A stretch of 40,614 bases of DNA from Andreprevotia sp. IGB-42 (lineage in GTDB: Bacteria > Pseudomonadota > Gammaproteobacteria > Burkholderiales > Chitinibacteraceae): contig NZ_WXTX01000021.1 in NCBI RefSeq assembly GCF_009848685.1, positions 1 through 40,614 of the forward strand. Direction: 5' to 3'. The notes under the pieces are model-generated. The model saw only the letters and a list, made by a program, of their open reading frames with translations. It did no database searches and was not told the origin of the DNA. The translations under genes and the position numbers were made by a program. Shown in pieces: positions 4,749 through 13,814 of the stretch. Within the stretch, counting starts at the first letter, position 1; every line of letters starts with the position of its first letter.

Positions 4749-5368
4749 TGGCAGGGTTGTCGCTTTCTACCCGGCTGGCGCTGTTTTTCTACGGCATGCC
4801 CAATATCGTGGGCAGCCTGTGCGCACTGGTGGTGCTGGCGCTGTATTTTGGCGGGGTGATTGCCGCATGGTGGTTTCCGCTGACCGTGGCCGCCTATGTG
4901 TTCGGCTGGTTGGCCACGCCGACACGCGGGCGTTTTGAAGCCAGCCTGATCGAGCGCATGAGCCTGATCGATGCGCTGGATGCACTGCTGGCCAGCGCCG
5001 GCAGCAAGTTACCTGCCGAGGCCACCACCTTGCTGGCCGCGATACGCAGCAAGGTGGTGGATCTGCTGCCCAGGCTGGATGAAGCCGGCTTTCCCACCCA
5101 GGCGCGCATCGAGCTGGGCAACGCCATCCGCCGTGATCTGCCGCATACCGTGGCCAATTACGTGGCATTGCCCAGCGGTTTTGCCAGCCTGCACCCGGTG
5201 CGCGCCGGCAAAACCGCCAGGCAGCTGTTGATCGAGCAACTGGCGCTGCTCGATAGCGAGATCGGCAGCATCGCCAATGATGTATTCGGCGAAGACGCCG
5301 ACAAGCTCGCCGCCCACGGCGACTACCTGCGCGGCAAGTTCCAGCCGGTGAACTTTCTGGAAAGCTGA
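4748..5368 (+). CDS. XpaC-like membrane protein of TelA operon
   Basis: A 206-residue protein with two N-terminal membrane helices (about residues 10-35 and 38-58) followed by a cytoplasmic helical domain. The pattern of two helices, a helical region and RRDLPHTVANYVALP resembles XpaC (PF10112, named 5-bromo-4-chloroindolyl phosphate hydrolysis), a family that often accompanies TelA. The similarity is judged by eye and is only suggestive. The ATG at 4748 shares bases with the TAA of the upstream gene, so translation is probably coupled. It would place a TelA partner at the cytoplasmic face of the membrane opposite the binding/VWA lipoprotein. Last gene of the operon; no strong terminator hairpin is seen after it. 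Confidence 0.65.
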   Translation: MAGLSLSTRLALFFYGMPNIVGSLCALVVLALYFGGVIAAWWFPLTVAAYVFGWLATPTRGRFEASLIERMSLIDALDALLASAGSKLPAEATTLLAAIRSKVVDLLPRLDEAGFPTQARIELGNAIRRDLPHTVANYVALPSGFASLHPVRAGKTARQLLIEQLALLDSEIGSIANDVFGEDADKLAAHGDYLRGKFQPVNFLES

Positions 5369-8955: not shown

Positions 8956-9402
8956 TCATTCAACCAGCAAAAGCAGGTAAGTACCTGCACTGGTCTTTTT
9001 TGCATAGAGAACCTGTTTTTTTGTTTCGTTATTCCACGTATATGGAAATGCGCAAAGTACGATGTTTCCATCGATACCCGTCGCAGTGGTCTTGATAGCC
9101 AGTGCATTGCCAAATTTTTTCTTCAAGCCACTCTCTATCGGCCTGCGCAACAAACCGCAAACCTCCTGGGCAATTGGCGGGTTTGGCAGCCTGGTAATGT
9201 TCTTTTCCATTTCTTCAAGACGTGCAGCCGGACGTTGTTCATTTCGGCCATATATCCCCGACTTGCCGTCATCGTCAATATGGGAATACTGATGGCCATA
9301 TTTCTTTATGAATGCTTCTGGATCCATATCTGCAGCGGTAGCCCCGGCAGTCATGGTGGCAAGCAGCAGCACGAAGGATGCACGGGAGAAAACGGAGTTC
9401 AT
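8956..9402 (-). CDS. Small secreted protein, duplicated family (copy 1)
   Basis: A 148-residue protein with a signal peptide (MNSVFSRASFVLLLATMTAG, cleavage near ATAA). The ATG at 9400-9402 is preferred over an upstream in-frame start because it opens the signal peptide. The mature protein contains DPEAFIKKYGHQYSHIDDDG, then a helical RLEEMEKNITRLPNPP, a conserved-looking cysteine in AQEVCGLL, and C-terminal strands (QVLYAKKTSAGTYLLLL). It is a paralogue of the frameshifted gene at 13242-13687, sharing DPEA..., GH(Q), DDGK and a RLP(N/K)P motif plus the following Cys. Function unknown; likely periplasmic. It converges on the GNAT gene. Confidence 0.75.
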   Translation of the reverse strand: MNSVFSRASFVLLLATMTAGATAADMDPEAFIKKYGHQYSHIDDDGKSGIYGRNEQRPAARLEEMEKNITRLPNPPIAQEVCGLLRRPIESGLKKKFGNALAIKTTATGIDGNIVLCAFPYTWNNETKKQVLYAKKTSAGTYLLLLVE

Positions 9403-9606
9403 CGGGTTCCTGAATGGTTGGGCGTTATAGCGCGTATATCCGCATGGGGCGACAAAAAAATTTGCCCATGGTGAACGCGTGACTGGCATCTTGGCTTGCA
9501 TGGTAGCAGAGGCTGCATCCATGGCAAGCACGCTCGTAGCGCCGGTAACGATAGGCATTGCTCCTGCGTGGTCACGACAGCAATTTACCTCCGTAGGGTA
9601 ATCGTA

Positions 9607-11925: not shown

Positions 11926-11973
11926 CCGGATGCGCGGCACCGGCAGCAACAAAGTGGCCAGTGCCCGGCCATA

Positions 11974-12622
11974 TCAAGCGCAGCCTGCCTGCCCATGCTC
12001 GATGGCCAATGCCAGCCGCTCCAGCCCGATGGCAAAACCGGCGCCCTCGGCATAGGCGCCGCCGCCGGCCACCTGCTTCTGCGCGCCCAGTACCGGGCAG
12101 CGGATTTCAAAGCCTTCACCGCCCAGGTAATAGCTCAATCCGCGCCGGGTGCGCGCATCCGTTTCGTAATCCACGCCCAGCGTATCCATGAAGCGCTGGC
12201 ACAGCTGCAAGCTGAATGCGCTGGCACGGGCGGGGTCTGGCCCCAGGTATTCAAAGCCCAACTGGGTGAATTCGCGGTAGCGCCCGGCTTGTGGACGCTC
12301 GTAGCGGTAGCAGCGGGCAATGTAGAAAAACAGCCGCTCTCTGGCGCCGCCCAGCAACACGCTTGCGCGCTCCTGGAAGATGGCCGTGGCCTCCGGGATC
12401 AGGCAGCAGGCGCGGCCTTTCTTGTCTGCAAATGCCCACATCTGGCCGATGATCTCGCTGCCGCCGGCCTTGTTGATGAAGGTATCCTGCTGCCACAGCG
12501 CAGGCAGGATGGCTTCTTCGGCGCCAGCTTCAATGAAGGCAGCTCCGGAAGCGGGCCTCCAGATCACGTAGCCGGGCGGCCTGCGGGCCGGTATAGATTT
12601 GTGTGCCTCTGATCATGGTCAT
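11974..12622 (-). pseudogene. Short histidyl-tRNA-synthetase-like gene with one-base frameshift
   Basis: A class II synthetase domain of the HisRS type. From the ATG at 12620-12622 the frame reads RGTQIYTGPQAARLRDLEAR and then hits a stop at about 12532; moving one base at about 12544 continues as AAFIEAGAEEAILPALWQQD. The rest matches HisRS: QDTFINKAGGSEIIGQMWAF, motif 2 with YRYERPQAGRYREFTQLGFE, a changed HisA motif (TRRGLSYY where HisRS has LVRGLDYY) and motif 3 FAIGLERL. Read through, it is about 215 residues, so the HisRS insertion domain and anticodon-binding domain are absent. It is probably a paralogue and not the housekeeping enzyme. It may be a true pseudogene, a sequencing error, or a recoded gene. 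Confidence 0.75.
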
Positions 12623-12663
12623 GCTTGTTGCTCCAAGGGTGGATTTGCCTGTTTCGCAGGCAA

Positions 12664-12686
12664 CAAAAAAGGCGCCGATGGGCGCC
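12664..12686 (-). terminator. Attenuator terminator of the histidine leader
   Basis: On the minus strand GGCGCC-CATC-GGCGCC is followed by six T residues, a standard intrinsic terminator. It lies between the histidine leader peptide and the HisRS-like gene, and nothing else on that strand ends here, so it is best read as the regulated terminator of an attenuator. Confidence 0.85.
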
Positions 12687-12719
12687 TGTGAATTGCTGCA
12701 GCTGGTGTGCCCGGTGGGG

Positions 12720-12806
12720 CTATGAACCAGTACGCTGAGCGAGCAAAACCACGGCGCAGCAGGGTGAGCCGTGGTGGTGATGCAGGTTCAGGAATGCGGT
12801 AGTCAT
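12720..12806 (-). CDS. Histidine leader peptide (His-attenuator)
   Basis: A 28-codon minus-strand frame beginning MTTAFLNLHHHHGSPCC, with four consecutive His codons at positions 9-12 (12771-12782), ends at a TAG at 12720-12722. It is followed by a 7-bp hairpin (arms 12749-12755 and 12768-12774), whose first arm overlaps the last His codon, and then by the T-tailed terminator at 12664-12686. A 5-bp all-GC alternative pairing joins the second arm region (12753-12757) to the first terminator arm (12682-12686). This is the layout of the classic his-operon attenuator: a ribosome stalled for lack of charged tRNA-His would favour read-through. The gene behind it is the HisRS-like gene. No strong ribosome-binding site is evident. 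Confidence 0.8.
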   Translation of the reverse strand: MTTAFLNLHHHHGSPCCAVVLLAQRTGS

Positions 12807-12858
12807 GCAGCCAGTGTGGCATGGCCCGTCTGCGCGGGTCAATGCCGCGCTGGTGTGG

Positions 12859-13241: not shown

Positions 13242-13687
13242 TTATTGTTCTCGCAGCATCACCATATACAGCCCGTCATGACCTTTCTTGAAGTACAAGA
13301 ACTGCCAGCGGGCTCGATTTTCCTGTTGGTATCTGAAAATACAAATGATGGTGGCGTGGTCGGCCGCATAGTCGGCAACAGTCACGCGCACGGTGCTGAT
13401 CAGTTGTCTGGCCGCGATCTCCAGGCTGCCTACGAAGTCGTGGCACATCGTTTTTACCAGCGCCGGTTTTGGTAAGCGGGCAATTTCCTTCTGTAACCTG
13501 GCAACGCGCTCGGGTGGAATTTCATCTCCACGGCTGTAGATCAGCATCTTCCCATCATCGCCTTTCTTGACCGTTTGATGCCCTTTCTGCGTGATCTCGG
13601 CCTCTGGATCCAATCCGGCAGCAATGCCGTGCGCGGCGGCAATGCGATGAGCAGTGCAGCAAGCAGGTGATGTTTGACGGGTTTCAT
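13242..13687 (-). pseudogene. Small secreted protein, duplicated family (copy 2, frameshifted)
   Basis: Paralogue of the protein at 8956-9402. The ATG at 13685-13687 opens a good signal peptide (MKPVKHHLLAALLIAL), but that frame then departs from the family. The mature domain continues in another frame as AAHGIAAGLDPEAEITQKGH, with GDDGKMLIYSRGDE, RLQKEIARLPKPAL and a Cys in KTMCHDFVG, all matching copy 1. One base is missing near 13640. Without the shift, the signal peptide and mature domain join cleanly. It is either a recent pseudogene or an assembly error. An alternative start in the second frame at 13694 gives no export signal. Confidence 0.7.
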
Positions 13688-13814
13688 GGCGCATTGTGGA
13701 TGACAGGGTGCGTCAGCATAGGATGAAACGCGATACCGTGCCAATGCTGGCACCTGGCTGCCGCCACGTGCCGTTATCGGCTGCGCGATTTCCTGCCCCC
13801 AAGTGCTATGCCCG

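Follow-up and report, generated by a model that had tools for sequence, protein, structure and literature searches.

The window analysed here is positions 1 to 40,614 of contig NZ_WXTX01000021.1 from Andreprevotia sp. IGB-42, 40,614 nucleotides (nt) of its forward strand. Its minus strand carries a short gene resembling histidyl-tRNA synthetase (HisRS) that is divided between two reading frames at a histidine (His) codon. We consider it likely that this gene encodes a His-poor HisRS core gated twice by a shortage of charged tRNA-His, once by an attenuator and once by a +1 frameshift at the His codon. It is also probable that the gene family provides the first functional case of "hungry codon" frameshifting, that is, a self-limiting switch that senses an aminoacyl-tRNA through a sense codon for the product's own amino acid. 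This proposal includes two further elements. The switch would have been assembled at more than one place in the gene family, in giant phages and some bacteria, and the enzyme would have been purged of its own amino acid and would be makeable when His-tRNA is lacking. The basis for the whole frameshift and enzyme reading is comparative sequence evidence. The parts of the gene are as follows.

12530–12622, minus strand: first open reading frame (ORF1, frame 0), 30 codons, MTMIRGTQIYTGPQAARLRDLEARFRSCLH then a stop; HisRS N-terminal RG motif and first helix.
12542–12547, minus strand: Shine–Dalgarno (SD)-like hexamer CGGAGC, ending 3 nt before the slip codon.
12533–12538, minus strand: proposed +1 slip site, CTT (12538–12536, P site) and the His codon CAT (12535–12533, A site).
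12530–12532, minus strand: ORF1 stop codon, TGA.
11974–12537, minus strand: HisRS-like catalytic part in the +1 frame (motifs 1–3), stop included; the joined product has 215 amino acids (P0002).

ORF1 starts at ATG 12622, its 3′ end reads CTT CAT TGA, and the catalytic domain resumes in the +1 frame. An earlier note on this DNA had placed a short HisRS-like gene downstream of a His leader. The gene is there, in two frames (from ATG 12622, then +1 from about 12537) and not as one plain ORF. The conserved +1 frameshift at a His codon inside the gene was missed in that note.

Every one of the 11 relatives that the genome-contig scan gave at 70% identity or more (L007–L017, in our numbering of loci) has the same +1 break. 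Two Paraburkholderia plasmids (L026, L027) have it as well, as does Sinorhizobium phage Phosso (L025), which was deposited as a complete genome. The annotations of L025–L027 start the protein internally, without the frame-0 N-terminus, and name it ATP phosphoribosyltransferase regulatory subunit or histidyl-tRNA synthetase. The full gene set was built from the genome-contig scan, scans of viral contigs and further genome searches. Loci L001–L004, L019–L024, L028 and L069 were skipped before counting, and genes that did not differ in their DNA around the anchor were counted once, leaving 73. These are 39 non-redundant shifted genes, a class defined by the +1 break itself (18 bacterial or from bacterial plasmids, the window's included, and 21 from phages; pairwise identity 41–98%), 33 unshifted genes, and L113, which has an in-frame stop and was placed in neither class. 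L065, L066 and L084 had no anchor in the class count; all three were single-frame in the anchor-distance comparison. Two copies are degraded. In L113 an in-frame TAA lies near position 1950 of the minus strand, and plasmid L028 has kept the leader but lost the junction through a deletion, around 4893–5000, that fuses this leader to the body of the gene.

All 39 shifted genes have, in the stretch that is open in both frames, a frame-0 NTT codon with a His codon directly after it (CTT in 31 and GTT in 8; CAT in 34 and CAC in 5), as against 1.1 genes expected from shuffled windows. Among the 18 bacterial genes CTT makes up 14.8% of the other Leu codons versus 18 of 18 at the slip site. The codon after the His codon is TGA in 28 genes and TAA in one. 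In the other 10 the stop lies 3–12 codons past the slip codon (an adjacent stop being at 2), and an A-site stop is therefore not the shared feature. Measured from the RG motif, a downstream anchor lies 67.3 or 68.3 codons away in the shifted genes versus 64–67 in the unshifted ones, as a +1 shift predicts, and in L038 the catalytic +1 frame opens exactly at the slip codon. The slip pair stands at codon 25 after the RG motif in 37 of the 39 genes, at codon 16 in L061 and at codon 69 in L104. In a midpoint-drawn tree, L061 is placed with unshifted genes (98/93 support), and the sister of L104 is the unshifted L044 (100/99); the label of the 37 same-site genes requires 4 changes.

The SD-like signal across the 39 genes is strongest for the hexamer whose end lies 3 nt before the slip codon. 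The mean duplex energy there is −6.0 kcal/mol versus −1.2 in control windows of the same genes, and the hexamer ranks at or below 5% in 27 of the genes and at or below 10% in 32. The eight GTT sites have the stronger mean duplex, −9.05 versus −4.4 for the 13 CTT sites of phages, as if the poorer slip codon, GTT, needed a better SD helper.

Other accounts of the junction were considered and rejected. A slip at TTC CGG AGC, which is conserved in the bacteria, was discarded because the phages have no TTC CGG and the common element is CTT or GTT plus a His codon; CGGAGC was accordingly reinterpreted as the SD-like element. A slip with tRNA-His in the P site fails by sequence logic, since the anticodon does not fit the +1 codon. 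Transcriptional slippage was rejected for want of a homopolymer run at the site, and a stop-driven shift, as in release factor 2 (RF2), because the stop is non-adjacent in the 10 genes mentioned. When the cassette CGGAGC-NNN-CTTCATTGA was sought in viral contigs, 57 stretches matched. Only one of them is a frame junction by the criteria used, that of the HisRS-like L159 on the contig of L082, which was already in the set, and the motif alone is therefore common by chance.

In the 18 bacterial genes the entropies of the three codon positions are 0.73, 0.54 and 1.34 in frame 0 before the junction, and 0.40, 0.29 and 1.33 in the +1 frame after it. That is, the third position is the freest on both sides, which shows that both frames are coding; CTTCAT is invariant. 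The joined product aligns without a gap to Thermus HisRS at the junction. With the hisS model (TIGR00442) it scores 119.7 bits and the catalytic frame alone 107.6, below the curated cut-off of 286.75. Its predicted fold, computed from an alignment of the window protein and 18 unshifted relatives, has a predicted local distance difference test (pLDDT) score of 90.4 and a predicted template modelling (pTM) score of 0.87, and a single helix, residues 12–31, spans the junction residue 29. The PDB structures closest to this fold are HisRS chains, the first being 1kmm with histidyl-adenylate. Among the aligned relatives there is little or no variation in the RGLxYY and GGG motifs and in the residues of the class II motifs. 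Judged by length and alignment, the product has neither the anticodon-binding domain nor the insertion domain, and the hisS match ends before the former. A PHROGs search with three members found no family. The joined product is predicted to fold as a minimal HisRS catalytic core, and it is best read as a histidyl-tRNA synthetase that would come to the rescue when His-tRNA runs short.

We regard as unlikely the alternative that the product, while still controlled by His-tRNA, is a HisZ-like regulator of histidine biosynthesis or a modifier of another protein. Two members are annotated as ATP phosphoribosyltransferase regulatory subunit, and a 215-residue protein that has no anticodon-binding domain would suit a HisZ-like role. 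However, the hisZ model gives 58.5 bits versus 119.7 for hisS, the catalytic motif residues named above are kept, and the window genome has elsewhere, besides a full-length hisS, a 385-residue PF13393 protein that is probably its HisZ. In addition, a tRNA-His gene lies near the phage members in 15 of 21 loci (within about 2.5 kb on each side; 4 kb for L025), which fits a synthetase better than a regulator.

Histidine is scarce in this putative synthetase. Within the HisRS-homologous columns the 39 shifted products have 4 His in 7990 positions (0.05%), and 36 of them have none. The same columns hold 138 His in 5040 positions (2.74%) in 24 canonical HisS proteins, none of which is without His, and 22 in 6615 in the 33 unshifted relatives, 17 of which have none. 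The canonical control consists of the 24 loci, out of 32, that gave an ORF by the pattern used; the HisZ-like L001 is among the 8 uncounted. Over their whole length 35 of the 39 shifted products are His-free, and the window product has one His. ORF1, counted from 3 codons before RG, has no His codon ahead of the slip site in 38 of 39 genes; L008 has one, just before the site. In most members, then, a ribosome starved of His-tRNA could get as far as the site, slip there and complete the enzyme. Enzymes of amino acid biosynthesis are reported to avoid their cognate amino acid (PMC4209129).

The other putative gate, the attenuator, lies upstream of the gene. The features of the window that bear on it, together with a hairpin at the other end of the gene, are as follows.

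12720–12806, minus strand: leader peptide ORF of 28 codons, MTTAFLNLHHHHGSPCCAVVLLAQRTGS (coordinates checked by script).
12771–12782, minus strand: four consecutive leader His codons, CAT CAC CAC CAC, read from the sequence.
12748–12775, minus strand: pause hairpin (regions 1:2), ACCACGGC (12775–12768) with GCCGTGGT (12755–12748), from the minimum-energy fold.
12748–12757, minus strand: region 2, GCGCCGTGGT, the proposed antiterminator strand, which by duplex energy can pair with the terminator 5′ arm.
12665–12687, minus strand: intrinsic terminator (regions 3:4), AGGCGCC-CATC-GGCGCCT (12687–12670) and a T run to 12665.
11955–11971, minus strand: terminator-like hairpin directly 3′ of the gene, a consensus match only.

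The order on the minus strand is thus the His leader ORF, the pause hairpin, the GGCGCC terminator with its T run, and the HisRS-like gene. Much of this had been described in the earlier note and was recovered here: the minus-strand leader of 28 codons with four His in a row is at 12806–12720, the hairpin over the last His codon is present in the minimum-energy fold of 12830–12610, and the GC hairpin with a T run in front of the gene is the terminator at 12687–12665. It is the ACCACGGC arm of the pause hairpin that overlies the last leader His codons. The fold of 12830–12610 has z = −2.69, and 1 of 200 shuffles folds equally well. Between 11850 and 12950, 2 terminator-like sites were found versus 0.8 expected, and by chance 1.5% of shuffled upstream regions would hold an ORF with 3 or more His within 5 codons. 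The note's reading needs amendment in that the attenuator, which it called translational, has the layout of a transcription attenuator instead. The alternative pairing it thought possible can form between region 2 and the terminator 5′ arm, in the window only modestly better than in shuffled sequences.

The note's own refuting condition, that the His codons or the terminator be missing from homologous loci, was checked in the bacterial relatives. An upstream ORF with at least 3 His is present in all 18 bacterial shifted genes, the window's included (3–6 His; longest run 2–4), a count that took the best His-scoring ATG ORF and therefore favours finding a leader. By a fixed rule (3 or more His within 5 codons), applied with a shuffled control, 17 of the 18 pass, the exception being L108. 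The GGCGCC stem and T run are perfect in 17 and imperfect in L011. The attenuator is thus not refuted by its relatives, and the interpretation of the leader as a His attenuator is supported by these sequences. In folds of the leaders the terminator forms in 18 of 18, whether no ribosome is present or one stands at the leader stop. Blocking the first His codon makes the complete leader abandon the terminator in its minimum-energy fold in 7 of 18. When only the terminator 5′ arm has been transcribed, the arm is paired upstream with a probability of 0.76–1.0 in all 18, a result that has no shuffled control. The region 2–region 3 duplex is better than shuffles at the 5% level in 11 of the 18 leaders, the window not being among them. 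On these results, antiterminator pairing in the leader is likely but not proven.

The fixed His rule is passed by 8 of the 33 unshifted genes, namely five in the family of genome G048, the Pseudomonas plasmid L029 and the phages L062 and L097. In the bacterial ones the terminator sequence differs from the window's. As a side observation, the unshifted bacterial genes L110, L112, L114, L116, L115, L111, L117, L107 and L029 have similar short ORFs upstream, with LGELL or LGALL near the end, and a terminator-like hairpin that differs from the window's; six of the nine (L029, L110, L112, L114, L115 and L116) pass the His rule. The unshifted phage genes L062 (MKMKTTYKLHHHTEKSGS) and L097 (MKTLNINTHFHFHFENLELGVH) likewise have short His-rich upstream ORFs, with a terminator-like hairpin in L097, and these may be attenuators in phages.

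We propose that the two gates would work as follows. At the first, in the bacterial members, low His-tRNA would stall the ribosome at the leader His codons; the stall would free region 2 to pair with the terminator 5′ arm, and transcription would enter the gene. At the second, in bacterial and phage members alike, translation would proceed from the ORF1 start to CUU_CAU. With His-tRNA plentiful, CAU would be decoded, and termination would occur there or a few codons on. With His-tRNA scarce, the peptidyl-tRNA-Leu in the P site would slip +1, from CUU to UUC, aided by the SD-like hexamer. The ribosome would then stay in the catalytic frame, where in most members it meets no further His codon. 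By recharging tRNA-His the enzyme would close both gates, much as RF2 acts at its UGA. What the sequences show is the conserved anatomy, coding in both frames, the His codon at each junction, the predicted fold and the scarcity of His; we infer the slippage, a dependence of the slip on His-tRNA, a tRNA-His charging activity of the enzyme and the feedback.

A constitutive programmed +1 frameshift is improbable in our estimate. In that case the shift would run at a fixed rate whatever the His-tRNA level, with the His codon being a convenient codon that begins with C. Such a shift would agree with the finding that CUU_U is by far the most efficient RF2-type site (PMC5009743), with the sequence logic by which re-pairing at UUC favours C as the next base, and with the SD-like hexamers at most sites. 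Against it, just the two His codons are used out of 16 CNN codons, in 39 of 39 genes, including CAC in five phages and the two relocated sites, and both the His leaders and the near-His-free product indicate the same His signal. We give very little credence to a model of two polypeptides, in which ORF1 encodes a short peptide and the catalytic frame begins internally by coupled reinitiation. It accords with the internal starts annotated for L026, L027 and phage Phosso and with an in-frame GTG 10 codons before the shift in the window. In 14 of the 39 genes, however, the catalytic frame has no ATG, GTG or TTG until 31–32 codons past the junction (about residue 60 of 215), and ORF1 holds the coding-conserved HisRS RG motif and raises the hisS match from 107.6 to 119.7 bits. 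Decay or sequencing error, possible for L061 or L104 alone, has next to no probability and is refuted as a general explanation by the conservation of the break: degraded copies exist (L028, L113), but 37 genes, from many assemblies and with the complete-genome phage record L025 among them, share one +1 break at one codon, with coding conservation on both sides of it in the bacterial genes.

Several points weigh against a twofold gate that responds to His-tRNA. The fixed rule finds a His leader in 0 of the 21 shifted phage genes, and the leader is therefore a trait of the bacterial members. When the first His codon is blocked, 11 of the 18 complete-leader folds, the window's among them, retain the terminator, and the window's duplex between region 2 and the terminator 5′ arm, at −13.7 kcal/mol, is equalled by 25 of 300 shuffles (8%). 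At the slip site, 12 of the 39 junctions miss the 5% SD rank, and L058 and L085 have no SD-like hexamer. The slip motif was defined from the same junctions that it describes, and C after NTT may be wanted just for re-pairing at UUC, which would limit the A-site codon to CNN. Since the 39 genes are kin, they do not amount to independent trials. Kinship is ignored both in comparing the phage SDs and in testing the His content, and the canonical controls of the latter test are confined to the bacterial family of the window. A sequence error is possible in L061 and L104, each of them a single contig. The tRNA-His genes of the phages sit in tRNA-rich stretches, and the unshifted phage control consists of 6 loci, 1 of which has such a gene. 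Finally, a HisRS is useless if histidine itself is absent, so that the likelier trigger would be a resident HisRS that fails or a charged tRNA-His pool that is lost.

In prfB, the gene for RF2, an internal SD is spaced 3 nt from the slip codon. The genes described here resemble prfB (PMC5009743) in the early site, the upstream SD-like hexamer, the CUU slip codon, the +1 direction and the short ORF1, and by analogy negative feedback by the product is plausible here too. They differ in that the A site holds a His codon (CAU or CAC) in 39 of 39 genes, where prfB has UGA, in that 8 of the 39 have GUU as slip codon, and in that the sensed molecule would be charged tRNA-His and not a release factor. 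Membership in the prfB class thus fails on the stop codon, and the statement that the switch works like prfB stands. The window genome's own prfB (G000:C49, L126) is single-frame, without the usual RF2 frameshift.

The attenuator of the enteric his operon leader combines a His-rich leader, competing hairpins, an intrinsic terminator and a histidine-linked target. The present leader shares these elements with it and with the leaders of hisS* and hisZ in bacilli (PMC2965389); unlike in those systems, the target here is a short catalytic-core HisRS. The earlier note, which knew of no described case of such a leader on a HisRS paralogue of this short type, also needs amendment here: His leader peptides are reported 5′ of both hisS* and hisZ in bacilli (PMC2965389), and a His leader on a HisRS paralogue is therefore not without precedent. 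The joined product resembles canonical HisRS (hisS; PDB 1kmm, 1adj, 4rdx) in its class II core, its RGLxYY and GGG motifs and the gapless match at the junction, and differs from it in having no anticodon-binding or insertion domain and almost no His and in scoring below the curated hisS cut-off.

In starved E. coli, hungry-codon frameshifting likewise occurs by a slip at a codon short of its aminoacyl-tRNA; unlike here, that frameshifting is incidental (PMC5009743). Frameshifting at a starved sense codon has been discussed before as a possibility, and a 2016 review states that no examples are known of starvation-induced frameshifting that yields a functional trans-frame protein (PMC5009743). 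Among the top full-text matches listed and in passages of PMC3711429, PMC12421855, PMC2965389, PMC4833913 and PMC9437257 the frameshift is not described, a scope outside which most subscription papers and all preprints fall. A possible exception is one unnamed "tRNA synthetase" cluster with a +1 transition, given under phase variation in PMC3711429.

The HisRS-like gene is carried by 3 of 43 genomes of the window's bacterial family, its own included; the relatives with the gene within the genus are Andreprevotia chitinilytica (L007) and A. lacus (L012). Among the phage members, 15 of the 21 shifted genes are on records of at least 250 kb. An Rfam scan of the window gave no family at the gathering score. 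Elsewhere in the window, two small predicted minus-strand proteins, at 8956–9558 and 13242–13694, look like paralogues by eye (..DPEAFIKKYGHQ.. and ..DPEAEITQKGHQ..).

If this proposal is true, three responses to one missing aminoacyl-tRNA are linked in a single system: attenuation, frameshifting and avoidance of the cognate amino acid. The family of 39 genes offers a defined, testable slip site whose product is likely the synthetase for the sensed tRNA. In the three annotated members looked at, L025–L027, the N-terminus of the protein is missing from the annotation. The presence of a rescue HisRS in giant phages, a puzzle in itself, would point to a contest over the charging of His-tRNA during infection.
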